Shown here: piece by piece, positions 1 through 14,349 of the stretch | How positions within the stretch are numbered: position 1 is the first letter of the stretch | Layout: each line of letters begins with the position of its first letter | Assembly: GCA_021734045.1 (NCBI GenBank) | Contig: JAIPJR010000065.1 | Location: 1-14,349 of the forward strand | DNA length: 14,349 bases | Origin: Fidelibacterota bacterium | GTDB lineage: Bacteria > Fidelibacterota > UBA8477 | Direction: 5' to 3' | Notes under the pieces: model-generated | What the model was told of the DNA's origin: nothing | The model's input: the letters and a program-made list of their open reading frames with translations, nothing else | Database searches by the model: none | Program-made: the position numbers and the translations under genes

Positions 1-67
1 CAAAGATATTGCGAATGTCGTCTTCTGAGGCGCTGAAGGGCAGGTTGCCCACATAAATCGTCTTCAT
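1..67 (-). CDS. RRM RNA-binding protein, copy A (partial, N-terminus only)
   Basis: Only the first 22 codons are in the window; the gene runs off the left edge. The visible part is nearly identical to the first 22 residues of the complete copy at 555-830, with one Val-to-Ile change at residue 21. It contains the RNP2 motif IYVGNL of an RNA recognition motif. The start is ATG at 67-65, with an AGGAGA SD 4 bases upstream (72-77), also identical to the other copy. The product is expected to be a single-domain RNA-binding protein of about 90 residues acting in the cytoplasm. Its leader is described separately at 68-365. The identity of the missing part is inferred from the sister copy. Confidence 0.85.
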   Translation of the reverse strand, partial: MKTIYVGNLPFSASEDDIRNIF

Positions 68-91
68 CTGATCTCCTGTGATTGACAATTG

Positions 92-113
92 CCCGGCATT
101 TTGGGGAGCCGGG
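92..113 (-). promoter_or_regulatory. Conserved hairpin upstream of SD, copy A
   Basis: A perfect 6-bp stem (CCCGGC, 92-97, with GCCGGG, 108-113) closes a 10-base loop. In the transcript the loop reads UCCCCAAAAU. The stem sits 25 bases before the start codon and about 15 bases before the AGGAGA SD. The same element, at the same distance, precedes copy B (856-875). The CUCC at the stem/loop junction is complementary to GGAG in the SD, so a loop-SD contact is possible but only 4 bp long. Confidence 0.5.
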
Positions 114-218
114 TCTCAAAAAAATTCCCCAGGAAAACTTTCATGCCACGTCCCGCAAATCCATAGAACCAACAGGATGATGATTACCGAAATACTTATC
201 CGTGTGAATCATCGTAAA

Positions 219-245
219 TGCTAACCGGATTTCTTCGGTTAAGCA
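219..245 (-). repeat. Inverted repeat (hairpin) in leader of copy A
   Basis: The arms 219-227 and 236-245 form a 9-bp stem interrupted by one bulged base (242), with an 8-base loop. In the transcript the stem is built on UAACCG/CGGUUA. It lies in the part of the leader that is not conserved in copy B. No T-run follows it on the minus strand, so it is not a standard terminator; an RNA structural element is more likely. Confidence 0.4.
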
Positions 246-336
246 CGTACACCGGTTCCCGTTGGAGAAGCAGGGTAAATCGTTTTGTCGTTCGTGTGGG
301 TCTGTGTAGATGGTATGTTTCCTAAATCAACGCCGG

Positions 337-369
337 AGTTTAACCGGGATTAGCCGTAATGCAAAGCAA
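337..369 (-). promoter_or_regulatory. Putative promoter of RRM gene copy A
   Basis: On the minus strand TTGCTTTG (369-362) is followed by a 19-base spacer and TAAACT (342-337). The same two elements with the same 19-base spacer occur upstream of copy B (1097-1129), although the spacer sequences differ. TTTG-N19-TA resembles the Bacteroidota primary sigma consensus (TTTG, about 19-21 bases, TAnnTTTG). A sigma70 reading with TTTGCA and 17 bases is also possible for this copy. Transcription would start near 330, giving a leader of about 260 bases. Confidence 0.45.
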
Positions 370-464
370 TTCGTAAAAGAAATAAAAATAATTGGAAAGC
401 GCAAAATTGCCTGATCCGATCTGATGGGTGAAAATAAAGCGGCTGCTCATGTGATATTCTTCTG

Positions 465-497
465 AAATAAAAACAGGGTGTGAGAAACACACCCTGT
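465..497 (-). terminator. Rho-independent terminator of RRM gene copy B
   Basis: A perfect 10-bp stem (ACAGGGTGTG at 473-482 with CACACCCTGT at 488-497) has a 5-base loop. On the minus strand it is followed by TTTTATTT (472-465). It lies 57 bases after the stop codon of copy B and about 95 bases before the putative promoter of copy A, so it separates the two transcripts. Confidence 0.85.
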
Positions 498-508
498 CAT
501 GTTTAATG

Positions 509-544
509 CCGGGTCAGTCGATTCAGATGAGAATCTAAACCCGG
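509..544 (-). repeat. Nested inverted repeat in 3' UTR of RRM copy B
   Basis: The outer arms CCGGGT (509-514) and ACCCGG (539-544) enclose inner arms GATTC (520-524) and GAATC (531-535) with a 6-base loop. The structure starts 10 bases after the stop codon, between the gene and its terminator. It has no T-run of its own. It may protect the mRNA 3' end, but nothing in the sequence proves a role. Confidence 0.4.
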
Positions 545-554
545 TCGCTGGACC

Positions 555-830
555 TTAATACCGCGAGCGGTCGTTGGTCCGGCGGGGCTTGCGCTCGCGT
601 GCCTCGTTAATCTGCAGTGTACGTCCTTCCATGGAATAATCCTGCAGTCCTTCGATGGCCTGGTTCGCCGGATCTTCATCCATCTCTACGAACCCAAAAC
701 CACGGGGACGACCGGTATCGCGGTCGGTGATTAACTTGACGGAATGAACCTCGCCGTATTCTGCGAACACGTTGCGAATGTCGTCTTCCGAAGCGCTGAA
801 GGGCAGGTTGCCCACATAAATCGTCTTCAT
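555..830 (-). CDS. RRM-domain RNA-binding protein, copy B
   Basis: A 91-residue protein made of one RNA recognition motif plus a short basic tail. RNP2 is IYVGNL (residues 4-9) and RNP1 is RGFGFVEM (43-50), with the aromatic residues that stack on RNA bases (Tyr5, Phe45, Phe47) present. The tail (78-91) is rich in Arg and Lys. Size and layout match the bacterial single-RRM proteins often annotated as RNP-1-like or glycine-rich RNA-binding proteins; here the glycine-rich tail is replaced by a basic one. The likely role is binding cytoplasmic RNA. Relatives in cyanobacteria are cold-induced, so a cold or stress role is possible but not shown here. The start is ATG with SD AGGAGA. The gene is monocistronic, with its own leader and terminator. 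Confidence 0.92.
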   Translation of the reverse strand: MKTIYVGNLPFSASEDDIRNVFAEYGEVHSVKLITDRDTGRPRGFGFVEMDEDPANQAIEGLQDYSMEGRTLQINEARERKPRRTNDRSRY

Positions 831-1096
831 CTGATCTCCTGTGATTGTCTTTCACCCGGCATTTAGGGGAGCCGGATATCTCAAAACCCCTTAGGAATCA
901 ATGTCGCCCTCCCGCAAGCCCGGTCAAAAAACAAACTGATTGCAAACGCTGCCCTTTTGGGGTGGTAAGAAACCAAACATACCTGCACAATACCCTCAGT
1001 CAGGCCGTAGAATGGTATCACCAGAGAGTGGTTTGTCATCATTTTGTCGTTCGTATGGGTCTGGGTAAAATGGTACGGTTCCTAACTCAACACGAA
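831..1096 (-). promoter_or_regulatory. Long 5' leader of RRM gene copy B
   Basis: The inferred leader is about 260 bases and mirrors that of copy A. The distal block (about 1042-1096) and the proximal block (831-880) are conserved with copy A at matching distances from the start codon, while the middle (about 881-1040) has diverged. In the middle, ATACC (990-994) and GGTAT (1014-1018) could pair weakly. A 100-codon plus-strand open frame (845-1147) runs antisense through the leader; I do not regard it as a gene. Conserved ends around a variable middle suggest selection on the leader RNA itself. Confidence 0.5.
856..875 (-). promoter_or_regulatory. Conserved hairpin upstream of SD, copy B
   Basis: A 5-bp stem (CCGGC, 856-860, with GCCGG, 871-875) closes a 10-base loop that reads UCCCCUAAAU in the transcript. 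It lies 26 bases before the ATG and is the counterpart of 92-113, where the stem is one pair longer. The loop differs by a single base between the copies. Confidence 0.5.
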
Positions 1097-1129
1097 AGTT
1101 TACGTCACCTGAATGGGAAAACAAAGCAA
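1097..1129 (-). promoter_or_regulatory. Putative promoter of RRM gene copy B
   Basis: On the minus strand TTGCTTTG (1129-1122), a 19-base spacer and TAAACTTTCG (1102-1093) follow each other. Both elements and the spacing match the copy A promoter candidate. The downstream element is close to the Bacteroidota TAnnTTTG form. It lies downstream of the CaCA gene stop (1179), so it would give copy B a promoter independent of the upstream operon. Confidence 0.45.
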
Positions 1130-9561: not shown

Positions 9562-10209
9562 TTGGCTCAGATTTTCCCCAAATGGACAAATAAGTTGCCG
9601 CCCGTGGTGGCTGCCACGGTTGTCGTTACACTAATCATGGTGGTTGGCTTTTTCTGGTGGTTTGGTTCGCCCAAATACACTGATGTGGGCTATCAACCTG
9701 TTCAGCCGGTTCCGTATAGCCATAAACTGCACGCCGGCGATTTGGGTATGGATTGCCGCTATTGCCACACCGGTGCGGAAAAATCGCCGGTGGCCATGGT
9801 TCCACCCACTCAAACGTGTATGAATTGTCATGTACTGGTTTTACCGGAGAGTGAAAAACTCCTGCCAGTGCGGGAGAGCTGGTCCACGGGAACCCCCATT
9901 CCCTGGGTGAAGGTTCACAAGGTTCCGGATTACGCCTATTTCGACCACAGCGCCCATTTGCGCGCGGGTGTGGGGTGTGCCAGTTGTCACGGCCGGATTG
10001 ATGAAATGGAAGTGGTGTATCAGGCCGAGACGCTTTCCATGGGCTGGTGCCTGGAATGCCATCGCGATCCGGATATGAGCCTGCGTCCCATGGATCAGAT
10101 TACCAACATGAGCTGGACGCCCCCGGCCGACCAGCGAGAATTCGCAGCCAAAGCCAAATCGGAGCGCAATATTAATCCGCCTACAAATTGTTCGGGATGT
10201 CACCGATGA
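9562..10209 (+). CDS. actA: Alternative complex III subunit ActA, pentaheme cytochrome c
   Basis: A 215-residue membrane-anchored multiheme cytochrome. One transmembrane anchor (about 15-35) precedes a periplasmic domain with five CXXCH heme-attachment motifs at 65-69, 86-90, 139-143, 163-167 and 210-214, as in ActA of Rhodothermus marinus. In ACIII, ActA takes electrons from ActB and passes them towards the mono-heme cytochrome subunit or a terminal oxidase. The motifs EKSPVAMVPPTQTCMNCH and FDHSAHLRAGVGCASCH are typical of the cytochrome c7/class III fold of this family. The start is TTG with AAGGAT seven bases upstream. Its TGA overlaps the actB ATG (10206-10209), indicating translational coupling. 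Heme attachment requires Sec export and the Ccm or Ccs system. Confidence 0.95.
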   Translation: MAQIFPKWTNKLPPVVAATVVVTLIMVVGFFWWFGSPKYTDVGYQPVQPVPYSHKLHAGDLGMDCRYCHTGAEKSPVAMVPPTQTCMNCHVLVLPESEKLLPVRESWSTGTPIPWVKVHKVPDYAYFDHSAHLRAGVGCASCHGRIDEMEVVYQAETLSMGWCLECHRDPDMSLRPMDQITNMSWTPPADQREFAAKAKSERNINPPTNCSGCHR

Positions 10210-13200
10210 GCAGGACAATGACGAAAGCATTAAAGCAGACTACGCCGTCCGGCAATAAAGCCTATTGGGCCAGCCTGGAACAGATAGAAAACACGCCGGA
10301 ATTTCATAAGATGGTTCAGCGGGAATTTCCCGAGGGTGCATCCGAACTGAATGATCCCATGTCCCGGCGCCGTTTCATTAATCTCATGGGTGCGTCAATG
10401 GCCCTGGCGGGATTGGTGAGTTGCCGGCGTCCGGTGGAGAAAATTATTCCCTACGTGGTGCAGCCAGAGGAGGTGACACCGGGGGTTTTGCAGCGCTATG
10501 CCACCACCATGCCCTTTGGTTTGAGTGCGTACGGTGTAACGGTGGAAAGTCATGAAGGTCGGCCAACAAAAATTGAGGGTAACCAGCTCCACCCGGCGAC
10601 TGAAGGTAGCGCCAATGCCTTTATGCAGGCTTCGATTTTGGGTCTGTACGATCCGGATCGCTCCCAACTGGTCAATCACAACGGACGGGATGCCACCTGG
10701 GAAGATTTCGTGGCGGCTTGGCGGAAATTGTATGATGACTATAAACGTACGGGAGGGAAAGGACTCGCCCTGCTGAGTGAATCTTTCGCTTCACCCACAC
10801 TGTATCGATTGAAAAAGGATTTCGAGCAGACCTTTCCCAATGCCACCTGGGTAACCTGGGAACCCCTGAGTGACGAAAATGCTTTTGCCGGAATGGAAGC
10901 TGCCACCGGTGAAGCCCAAATGCCGCTGTACGACTACGCCAAAGCGGATGTTGTTCTGTCGTTGGATGCGGATTTTCTACTTTTAGAGAGCGAAAACCTT
11001 TCCGCCTCCCGCGGTTTTTCCAACGGACGCCGTGTGGAAAAAGAGACAGACAAAATGAATCGTCTGTACGTCGTAGAGCCTGCTTTTACCATCACCGGCG
11101 GCATGGCCGATCATCGGCTGAGGCTGCAGGCGCGACAAGTGGGCGCCTTTACCGCCGCTCTGGCCGTTGAGTTGAGAAAATTAGGGTTGGATGTGGCTGA
11201 TGATTCCACATTGGGTGATTACGCAAAACACAATTTTGATAAGCGCTGGTTGAAAGCGCTGGCCCGGGATTTATTCAACAACCGCGGGAAAGGCCTGATC
11301 GTGGCCGGCCGGCGTCAACCCGCCCCGGTGCATGCCCTGGTTTTCGCGCTGAATCGTGCTCTGGGAAATGAGGGCAAAAGCGTAGCGTACCGGAAATTCA
11401 CCGATGCCGCCCTTCCCAGCACCAAAGCGCTGACTGATCTCACCGCATCCCTGCAAAAGGGTGCTGTGGAGACAGTGGTCATTCTGGGTGGAAATCCCGC
11501 TTACAACGCCCCGGCTGATTTGGCATTCGATAAAGCCCTGGGAAAAGCGAAGCATGTCATACATCTGGGTCATGGTATTGATGAAACCGGCAGTCTGGCT
11601 GAGTGGCATTTACCCCAGAGTCATTATCTGGAAAGCTGGGGCGATGCTCGATCTGCTGATGGCACATTGAGTGTCATACAGCCGCTGATTGATCCGCTCT
11701 TTGACAGCCGTAATGCCATTGAAGTGTTGGCGCTCATCAATACAGGCAGTCTGCCGAAAGCGTATGAGTTGGTGCGGGAAACCTGGCAATCGCTGGTGAG
11801 CGGACCGTTTGAAACAGCGTGGCGACGCGTGCTCCACGACGGTGTTTTGGTCGACTCTGCTGTGAAGACCAATCGTTCTGGTATGAGTCGAAATTTTTCC
11901 ACCTACCTGAGAAACAATCCGTTTCCCACCGACGCCGCTGATCCGGCGAGCATGGAGGTGGTTTTTGCTGCCTCGACCCATACTTGGGACGGTCGTTTTG
12001 CTAATATCGGCTGGTTGCAGGAATTGCCTGATCCCAACACCAAGCTGACCTGGGATAATGCGGCGCTTATGAGCCATTCCACGGCGGAAAAGCTGGGGGT
12101 GAAGAATGAAGACTTGGTATCCCTGACCGTGGATGGCCGACAGGTGTCGCTTCCGGTTTGGATTATGCCAGGGCAGGCTGACTGGACAATTGTTGTGGCG
12201 TTGGGGTTTGGTCGCACAAAAGCCGGTCGCATTGGTAATTATGTGGGGCAGAATACTTATCAATTACGCACGACGAAAGCGCTTCATTTTGCCGGTGGTG
12301 TGACGGTGACTCCCACTCGGGAAACCTATAAGCTGGCTTGTACCCAGGATTTTCACGGTTTAGATGCGGAACAACTGGCGTCTGAAACAATCCAGCAGCG
12401 ATTACCCACTATTATCAAGGAAGCTACGCTGGATCAATACCGTGCGCACCCGCATTTTGCAGAGCAGGAGCTGGAATTTCCCAATAACTCTATGTGGGAA
12501 GACTGGAAATATGACACCGGTTATCAATGGGGTATGTCCATTGACTTGAATGTGTGTACCGGGTGTAATGCCTGTGCCATTGCGTGCCAGAGTGAAAACA
12601 ATATTCCGGTGGTGGGCAAAGCGCAGGTGGCCAAGGGTCGTGAAATGCACTGGCTGCGGCTGGACCGTTACTATTCCGGCGATTTGGATGCACCGGAAAT
12701 GGTGTTCGAACCGGTTGGGTGTCAGCATTGCGAAATGGCACCCTGTGAGCAGGTCTGTCCGGTGGCCGCCACCAGTCACGACGAAGAAGGTCTTAATGTC
12801 ATGACCTACAATCGTTGCGTGGGTACCCGGTACTGCTCCAATAATTGTCCCTACAAAGTACGCCGGTTCAATTTCTTCAACTACACCAAGGACACCCCAG
12901 AAGTTGTGCGGATGGCCATGAATCCTGATGTAACGGTGCGCTTCCGCGGAGTCATGGAAAAATGTACCTACTGTCTCCAGCGTATTAATCGCGGTAAACA
13001 GATGGCCAAGAAGGAAAACCGGACGCTGCGTGATGGTGAGGTGGTGTCCGCCTGTCAACAGACCTGTCCCACGGACGCAATCGTTTTTGGGAATATCAAT
13101 GATCCTGACAGCCGGGTGAGTCAGTTGAAAAAGCAGAATCGCGATTTCGGCCTGCTGGCTGAATTAAACACGCGTCCCCGGACTTCCTATTTAGCCAAGT

Positions 13201-13247
13201 TGCGGAATCCTAATCCCGAGCTGGAACTTCCGGTTCATCAGGGTTGA
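10206..13247 (+). CDS. actB: Alternative complex III subunit ActB, molybdopterin-like/iron-sulfur fusion protein
   Basis: A 1013-residue periplasmic subunit carrying electrons from ActC to ActA. Residues about 20-73 are the extended Tat region of MoCo/4Fe-4S proteins (YWASLEQIENTPEF, EFPEGASE, then SRRRFINLMG at 53-62 and LVSC at 70-73), giving Tat export and possibly lipid anchoring. Residues about 80-730 resemble a molybdopterin oxidoreductase catalytic domain; family members carry no Mo cofactor. The C-terminal ferredoxin-like part has four motifs: Cys784/787/790/794, Cys839/842/847/851, Cys871/877/881 with Thr874 in the second position, and Cys920/923/950/954. This agrees with three [4Fe-4S] and one [3Fe-4S] cluster. 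ATG 10206 is chosen because it overlaps the actA stop; in-frame alternatives are 10197 and 10218. Confidence 0.95.
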   Translation: MSRTMTKALKQTTPSGNKAYWASLEQIENTPEFHKMVQREFPEGASELNDPMSRRRFINLMGASMALAGLVSCRRPVEKIIPYVVQPEEVTPGVLQRYATTMPFGLSAYGVTVESHEGRPTKIEGNQLHPATEGSANAFMQASILGLYDPDRSQLVNHNGRDATWEDFVAAWRKLYDDYKRTGGKGLALLSESFASPTLYRLKKDFEQTFPNATWVTWEPLSDENAFAGMEAATGEAQMPLYDYAKADVVLSLDADFLLLESENLSASRGFSNGRRVEKETDKMNRLYVVEPAFTITGGMADHRLRLQARQVGAFTAALAVELRKLGLDVADDSTLGDYAKHNFDKRWLKALARDLFNNRGKGLIVAGRRQPAPVHALVFALNRALGNEGKSVAYRKFTDAALPSTKALTDLTASLQKGAVETVVILGGNPAYNAPADLAFDKALGKAKHVIHLGHGIDETGSLAEWHLPQSHYLESWGDARSADGTLSVIQPLIDPLFDSRNAIEVLALINTGSLPKAYELVRETWQSLVSGPFETAWRRVLHDGVLVDSAVKTNRSGMSRNFSTYLRNNPFPTDAADPASMEVVFAASTHTWDGRFANIGWLQELPDPNTKLTWDNAALMSHSTAEKLGVKNEDLVSLTVDGRQVSLPVWIMPGQADWTIVVALGFGRTKAGRIGNYVGQNTYQLRTTKALHFAGGVTVTPTRETYKLACTQDFHGLDAEQLASETIQQRLPTIIKEATLDQYRAHPHFAEQELEFPNNSMWEDWKYDTGYQWGMSIDLNVCTGCNACAIACQSENNIPVVGKAQVAKGREMHWLRLDRYYSGDLDAPEMVFEPVGCQHCEMAPCEQVCPVAATSHDEEGLNVMTYNRCVGTRYCSNNCPYKVRRFNFFNYTKDTPEVVRMAMNPDVTVRFRGVMEKCTYCLQRINRGKQMAKKENRTLRDGEVVSACQQTCPTDAIVFGNINDPDSRVSQLKKQNRDFGLLAELNTRPRTSYLAKLRNPNPELELPVHQG

Positions 13248-13304
13248 TGGATTTTGATAGATAAAAAATGATGTGCATGAACTGACGAAGAGAAGGCTAT
13301 TCGT

Positions 13305-14349
13305 TTGAAAACCACTGTACCAAATCGCTCGCCCTCGGATGTGGCCATGGTGGCCGGGGTGGCGGAAGAAAAACCGTTGATTGCAGGTAACCAGACCTTT
13401 CATAGCGTTACCGAAAAAATCGCGGGCATTTTGGAGAAGAAGACGCCTACCGGTTGGTATCTGGCCTTTGCGGCGGCAGTGTCAGCACTGCTGTTGCTGG
13501 GCGGCAGCGTGGGGTATCTCTTTTGGGAAGGAACGGGCATCTGGGGACTCAACAACCCCGTTGGATGGGGTTGGGCGATTGTGAACTTCATATGGTGGGT
13601 CGGTATTGGTCATGCCGGTACGCTGATTTCAGCTATTCTCCACCTTTTGCGTCAACAGTGGCGTACCAGCATCAACCGATTTGCTGAGGCGATGACGCTG
13701 TTTGCAGTAATGTGTGCCCTGCTTTTCCCGGGTATCCATGTGGGTCGGGCCTGGATTCTTTACTACTTCTTTCCGGTTCCCAATCAAATGGCCATGTGGC
13801 CGAACTTCCGCAGCCCGCTGTTGTGGGATTTTTTCGCGGTGGGGACCTACTTTACGGTATCACTCCTCTTCTGGTACACGGGTTTAATTCCTGATCTGGC
13901 AACGCTGCGAGATCGTGCTAAAACAAAGGTGAAAAAAGTCGTCTTTGGATTTCTCTCCATGGGTTGGCGCGGCGGGAATCGCCAGTGGAAGCATTATGAA
14001 TTGGCTTATTTAATTCTGGCTGGCCTCTCCACACCATTGGTGCTGTCGGTGCACTCGGTTGTGAGCACCGATTTTGCCACCAGTATTTTACCGGGCTGGC
14101 ACACCACCATTTTCCCACCCTATTTTGTGGCTGGCGCAATTTTCTCCGGATTTGCCATGGTGATGACATTGGCGCTCATTGCGCGGAAAATCTTTGGTCT
14201 GCAGGACTTCATTACCATAAATCATCTGGAGAAGATGAATAAGATCATGTTGGTCACCGGTTCCATGGTGGGTTACGCCTACATCATGGAATTCTTTATT
14301 GCGTGGTACAGCGGAAATGAATTTGAAACCTTTGCCTTTATCAACCGAG
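13305..14349 (+). CDS. actC: Alternative complex III subunit ActC, NrfD-like (partial, C-terminus missing)
   Basis: The frame is open from TTG 13305 to the window end, 348 codons without a stop; the complete protein is usually about 450-480 residues. It is an NrfD/PsrC-family integral membrane subunit of ACIII that binds menaquinol. After an N-terminal cytoplasmic segment (1-50), transmembrane helices are seen near residues 51-72, 88-112, 127-147, 173-195, 230-250, 272-295 and 316-340. Family-typical segments include [18 protein letters not shown] (97-114), [23 protein letters not shown] and [15 protein letters not shown]. The start TTG has an AGAAGG SD eight bases upstream (13291-13296); the next in-frame ATG is 13347. 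It lies 57 bases after actB. actD, actE and actF are expected beyond the edge. Confidence 0.92.

Follow-up and report, generated by a model that had tools for sequence, protein, structure and literature searches.

Tandem RRM genes of a Marinimicrobia genus have long conserved leaders that probably hold a pseudoknot near the start codon

The two tandem RRM genes at the edge of a Ca. Marinimicrobia contig are preceded by long leaders which, judged by sequence comparison, are real and conserved, and whose start-proximal block holds a probable H-type pseudoknot. We propose that each gene has a promoter of its own some 270 bases upstream, from which a leader of about 260 nt would be transcribed. 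The 5′ end of this leader (about 50 nt) and its start-proximal 80 nt would be under constraint, whereas the middle would be free to drift. Stem 1 of the predicted pseudoknot (AGGGG/CCCCU) would form across the loop of a CCGGC/GCCGG hairpin, and the RRM protein would bind its own leader at the pseudoknot, the 5′ element or both, thereby shifting the fold. Ribosome loading would then drop as the protein accumulates, which amounts to autogenous translational control. For this reading as a whole we put the chances at about even.

The window, by which we mean the whole stretch of 14,349 nucleotides that was analysed, carries both genes in tandem on the minus strand. RRM gene A is represented by its first 22 codons (1-67, start at 67), the rest being cut off by the contig end. 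RRM gene B (555-830) encodes a protein of 91 amino acids that matches Pfam RRM_1 (E 2.5e-19) and keeps both RNP2 (IYVGNL) and RNP1 (RGFGFVEM) intact. Residues 1-22 of the two proteins are 95% identical. Beyond this pair, no further RRM gene was found in the window's genome, whose nearest named relatives are the MAGs CG1_02_48_14 and Tobar14m-G39. The second species of the genus (G002) likewise has its two RRM genes as a tandem pair, preceded by the same Na/Ca exchanger gene, and a DMT-type transporter gene follows the second of them as well as the RRM gene of genome G001. A terminator-like hairpin (ACAGGGTGTG/CACACCCTGT) lies behind gene B at 470-497, and nearly the same hairpin is found behind the second RRM gene of G002. 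The matching gene order suggests that the pair is older than the species split, and the resemblance of these terminators suggests some exchange between the copies.

Realignment of leaders A and B gave 52 identical columns out of 64 (81%) in the distal block, close to the roughly 50 of 61 of the original prediction, and the conserved-variable-conserved pattern described there was recovered, with 74/169 identical columns in the middle (44%) and 38/45 in the proximal block (84%). A BLAST search of leader B against its own genome recovered both blocks of leader A with E values of 3.5e-10 and 1.2e-9, far beyond chance. The two leaders of G002 (G2_1 and G2_2) carry both end blocks too, so that conservation of the distal block extends beyond a recent duplication. 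In the resulting set of four leaders, from two species and two MAGs, 40/64 distal columns are invariant, compared with 18/152 in the middle and 41/70 between TTCCT and the Shine-Dalgarno sequence (SD). The SD itself, AGGAGAU (71-77 for gene A and 834-840 for gene B, both minus strand), is invariant in five leaders. Across all pairs of the four leaders, identity is 72-88% in the distal, 31-50% in the middle and 68-93% in the proximal part. Such ends would be hard to expect if the leaders were the unselected leftover of a recent tandem duplication, an explanation that draws on the nearly identical coding starts and on the likely exchange between copies seen in the terminators. That the ends still stand at 68-93% when the middle is down to 31-50% contradicts duplication without selection; the second species repeats the pattern, and the surroundings of both its copies match. 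We regard this explanation as extremely unlikely. The distal core ACGAACGACAAAA has no perfect match in the three congeneric genomes other than at RRM leaders. It was also considered as a regulon site and rejected, as one-mismatch matches elsewhere were no commoner than those of a reversed control. A search with the leader DNA through the remaining genomes of the phylum (245 in total) brought up nothing similar except two weightless 22-base matches.

Trained on the sequences preceding 39 tRNA genes of the genus, a promoter model took the form TTGNNN-N17-TATATTTG with nearly fixed spacing; it replaced a first model from all upstream regions, which had not converged on one motif. In most of the genus tRNA promoters (L211-L250), the -10 element is followed by CGC(G)CTTTTT. 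When the four aligned RRM leaders were scored together, the best match to the model was CTTTG..(T/G)TAAACT (total 21.6), with the spacing of the tRNA promoters and with its -10 element, TAAACT, at the 5′ edge of the distal block. The runner-up (12.4) lies farther upstream, and joint scoring of the four leaders showed no competing site in the middle or proximal part. The scores of single leaders are weak, especially for B and G2_1, and none beats shuffled sequences singly. Only 4 of the 17 spacer columns are invariant and the hexamers are conserved, as expected of a promoter. An alternative placement within the distal block, TTGATT-N17-TACACA, scored poorly with the genus model (-6.3 to 1.5) and was dropped in favour of this site. 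The putative promoter of leader A occupies 335-366 (minus strand; -35 CTTTGCAT, -10 TTAAACTCC) and that of leader B 1095-1126 (minus strand; -35 CTTTGTTT, -10 GTAAACTTT). This would place the transcription starts near 330 and 1090 and make the four leaders 260-277 nt long; close to the start codons, the sequence holds no conserved promoter-like site. With the promoter at its 5′ edge, the distal block would comprise the -10 element and the first ~50 nt of the mRNA. The earlier description of this block as leader RNA accordingly fits the latter portion, whereas the -10 element would be a DNA signal.

These observations also bear on a simpler explanation, in which two separate conserved pieces exist without any control by the leader: a promoter with its initially transcribed region at the distal end, and a ribosome-binding region with a small hairpin at the proximal end. 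The distal conservation does include the -10/-35 pair and an AT-rich stretch upstream of it, and the SD and its flank are invariant. However, the ~50 bases past the putative start are conserved as well (32/52 columns invariant), which goes beyond the needs of a promoter. Together with the pseudoknot evidence given below, this leaves the two-piece explanation possible but doubtful in our view.

The conserved 5′-terminal element spans 283-330 in leader A and 1042-1090 in leader B (minus strand) in the four-way alignment. No conserved fold was found within it, the longest conserved helix being only 4 bp. An upstream reading frame was rejected, as inspection of the alignment by eye showed no conserved start codon and a frame-breaking gap in leader A; the distal ACCCACA was also considered as a partner of the coding start and rejected, as G2_1 breaks this pairing. 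In each of the four leaders, base pairing is predicted to be sparser in the element than in the middle, with a mean unpaired fraction of 0.46-0.70 compared with 0.27-0.43. This would suit a constitutive aid to translation, in which the 5′ element serves as a ribosome standby or S1 site and the pseudoknot keeps a loading-competent shape, with no feedback by the RRM protein. There is a precedent in the tisB mRNA, where a pseudoknot and a distant single-stranded site serve ribosome standby (PMC7708055). Like tisB, the window leaders would combine a pseudoknot with an open upstream region in a long leader; the tisB pseudoknot, however, is near the 5′ end, whereas that of the window leaders is near the SD, the gene class differs and no sequence likeness was seen. 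Moreover, the difference in accessibility is small, and negligible in leader B (0.46 compared with 0.43). We consider such a constitutive role unlikely, also because the recurrence of pseudoknot leaders at RRM genes points to a link with the protein.

In the proximal block, a hairpin CCGG(C)/(G)CCGG precedes the SD in all leaders, and in all four its loop is complementary to a segment 5′ of the hairpin, which allows an H-type pseudoknot 13-15 nt before the SD. In leader A (92-131, minus strand), stem 1 would pair 131-126 with 107-102 (UGGGGA/UCCCCA) and stem 2 113-108 with 97-92 (CCCGGC/GCCGGG). In leader B (854-891, minus strand), the corresponding pairings are 891-887 with 869-865 (AGGGG/CCCCU) and 877-871 with 860-854 (AUCCGGC/GCCGGGU). 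The G002 leader G2_2 has the same stem 1 as leader B, and in G2_1 (AGGGC/GCCCU) both partners of one pair are changed relative to the other leaders. A second two-sided change is probably present in leader A, where U-A replaces A-U, an assignment that hinges on a two-base deletion in the alignment. The stem 1 of G2_1 forms 5 bp with its own partner compared with 3-4 bp in every cross-pairing. Leaders A and B pair with themselves at least as well as with others, and the loop of leader A pairs equally well with the stem 1 strand of G2_2. Taken singly, the stems 1 reach P values of 0.03-0.15 against shuffled sequences and the pseudoknot z of both window leaders is only -1.7. Since single stems could thus be due to chance, the case for the pseudoknot depends on compensatory change and on what other RRM leaders show. 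Retention of stem 1 through compensatory change also argues against a mere ribosome-binding region with a small hairpin. Support for selection on a long leader, as originally predicted, comes from this covarying pseudoknot together with the putative promoter at the distal 5′ edge and the conservation in the second species.

For the comparison with other RRM leaders, the most favourable H-type pseudoknot energy within 110 bases upstream of the start was set against dinucleotide shuffles, with a cut-off of z<-2. This cut-off was passed by 21 of 35 Marinimicrobia RRM leaders (60%), compared with 12 of 182 controls, which were upstream regions from the window's genome (7%). The enrichment (P 4e-12) is overstated by the relatedness of the Marinimicrobia leaders to one another. 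It speaks against the two-piece explanation. Taken as a whole, RRM leaders of other phyla showed no enrichment (7/85, 8%, against 7% in the controls).

One Marinimicrobia family has matches to the Chlorobi-RRM RNA (RF01697) 26-32 bases before the RRM gene that fall below the gathering score of 45 bits; such RNAs lie directly upstream of the RRM genes at L133, L134, L137, L138 and L139. In this family, the loop of hairpin 2 has its partner in a segment immediately upstream of the SD, and the covariation is strong, several pseudoknot pairs being changed on both sides (GUGCGUU/AACGCAC, UUGCGUU/AACGCAA, GUGCGUAA/UUACGCAC and GUGUUC/GAACAU). The alignments A4-A8 had lost the register of the pseudoknot stems, and these pairs are given after registering by structure. 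Among 395 genomes scanned from the phylum that includes Tangfeifania (locus L080), 84 carry RF01697 itself above threshold. Chlorobi-RRM leaders at L252-L280 (locus coordinates about 1501-1606) have a pseudoknot between loop and downstream sequence: in 25 leaders from these genomes, UGUGC in the loop pairs with a GCACA some 20 bases upstream of the start codon. Pairing holds in 98.3% of cells, with one two-sided and several one-sided changes. The Rfam model stops before the downstream GCACA strand, which suggests that the motif is truncated, its loop partner lying downstream. This pseudoknot may already be noted in the supplement of the paper on the Chlorobi-RRM RNA. The Marinimicrobia family also suggests that related RNAs are present in a second phylum.

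The window leaders resemble Chlorobi-RRM (Weinberg et al. 2010, PMC2864571) in that a structured 5′ leader lies near the start codon of an RRM gene, and in both cases the leader extends into an H-type pseudoknot, a probable one in the window leaders. In contrast, stems, loops and sequence differ and the covariance model is not matched: RF01697 gave no match in the window, even with the limit raised to E 10, and none at E 1 in the three genomes G000, G001 and G002. The two successive hairpins of Chlorobi-RRM (CCAA..UUGG, and a long stem with the loop UUUGUGC) are absent from the four genus leaders, and the predicted window pseudoknot, unlike that of Chlorobi-RRM, is compact and located behind a long leader with a conserved 5′ end. 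The window leaders lie outside RF01697 and most likely represent a further variant of RRM leader RNA. Another type of pseudoknot is seen in the Marinimicrobia RRM leaders L012, L013, L015 and L021 (CUGUUGUG/CACAACAG compared with CUGUCAUG/CAUGACAG); the RRM genes of L012 and L015 are tandem. RRM leaders from Deltaproteobacteria MAGs (L048, L056, L057, L060 and similar ones) share GGTCCGACCTGACAGG(A/G)CC upstream of locus position 1501 and have a second hairpin with a varying stem before the SD, which looks like a further leader RNA.

Because an RNA-binding protein and a structured leader of its own gene recur together across lineages with unrelated sequences, feedback is the most economical reading. 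In the S15 and S4 alpha operon mRNAs, a pseudoknot near the start lets an RNA-binding ribosomal protein limit its own translation. The window leaders would share with these the pseudoknot near the start of a gene for an RNA-binding protein, with the feedback being predicted; their pseudoknot, however, lies 13-15 nt 5′ of the SD and does not include the start codon, and no Rfam match to these systems was found. Cold-shock leaders of the cspA type are likewise long, with a conserved 5′ end and a gene for a small RNA-binding protein, and ~260 nt falls within their range of lengths. A temperature-responsive leader, of cold-shock or thermometer type, might be expected on these grounds. However, Rfam searches of the window brought no credible match, either at gathering scores or with the limit relaxed to E 10, no likeness to a cold box was seen by eye and no strong conserved fold masking the SD was found, so that we think a thermal response very unlikely. 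As for RRM proteins themselves, the cyanobacterial Rbp1 is reported to be needed for cold adaptability (PMC9333190), which would fit a thermal response, and the mRNA of the Bacteroides protein RbpB contains a site to which RbpB itself binds (PMC11697453), in favour of feedback. The original prediction had named a temperature- or self-responsive element; the comparison with other RRM leaders makes the second plausible and the first is unsupported.

A nearly invariant UUCCU(A/G) stands inside an otherwise variable stretch of the leaders. In leader A, UUCCUG (130-135, minus strand) could pair with the distal UAGGAA (324-319) or with the SD; in leader B, UUCCUA (892-897, minus strand) could pair with UAGGAA at 1084-1079 or with the SD, both being weakly indicated candidates. 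Pairing of UUCCU with the SD is possible in all four leaders, and the four-way complementarity of the distal UAGGAA/UUCCU pairing reaches a column-permutation P of only about 0.03. Pairing with either the 5′ element or the SD would make a switch. On a wider scale, the RRM genes of Marinimicrobia and Chlorobi might use a general device, a pseudoknot before the start that is built from unrelated sequences and read by the RRM protein; in the window genus this would be joined with the distant 5′ element, which competes through UAGGAA/UUCCUA/SD and switches the ribosome-binding site. This wider idea we hold to be rather doubtful.

In bacterial groups that lack Hfq, RRM proteins are candidates for global RNA-binding regulators. 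Little is known about what sets the level of these proteins, and the recurring pseudoknot at RRM leaders offers a direct, testable site of feedback. Elsewhere in the window, an operon at 9562-14348 encodes a cytochrome c7-like protein, a large molybdopterin/4Fe-4S protein and a membrane protein, and resembles alternative complex III.
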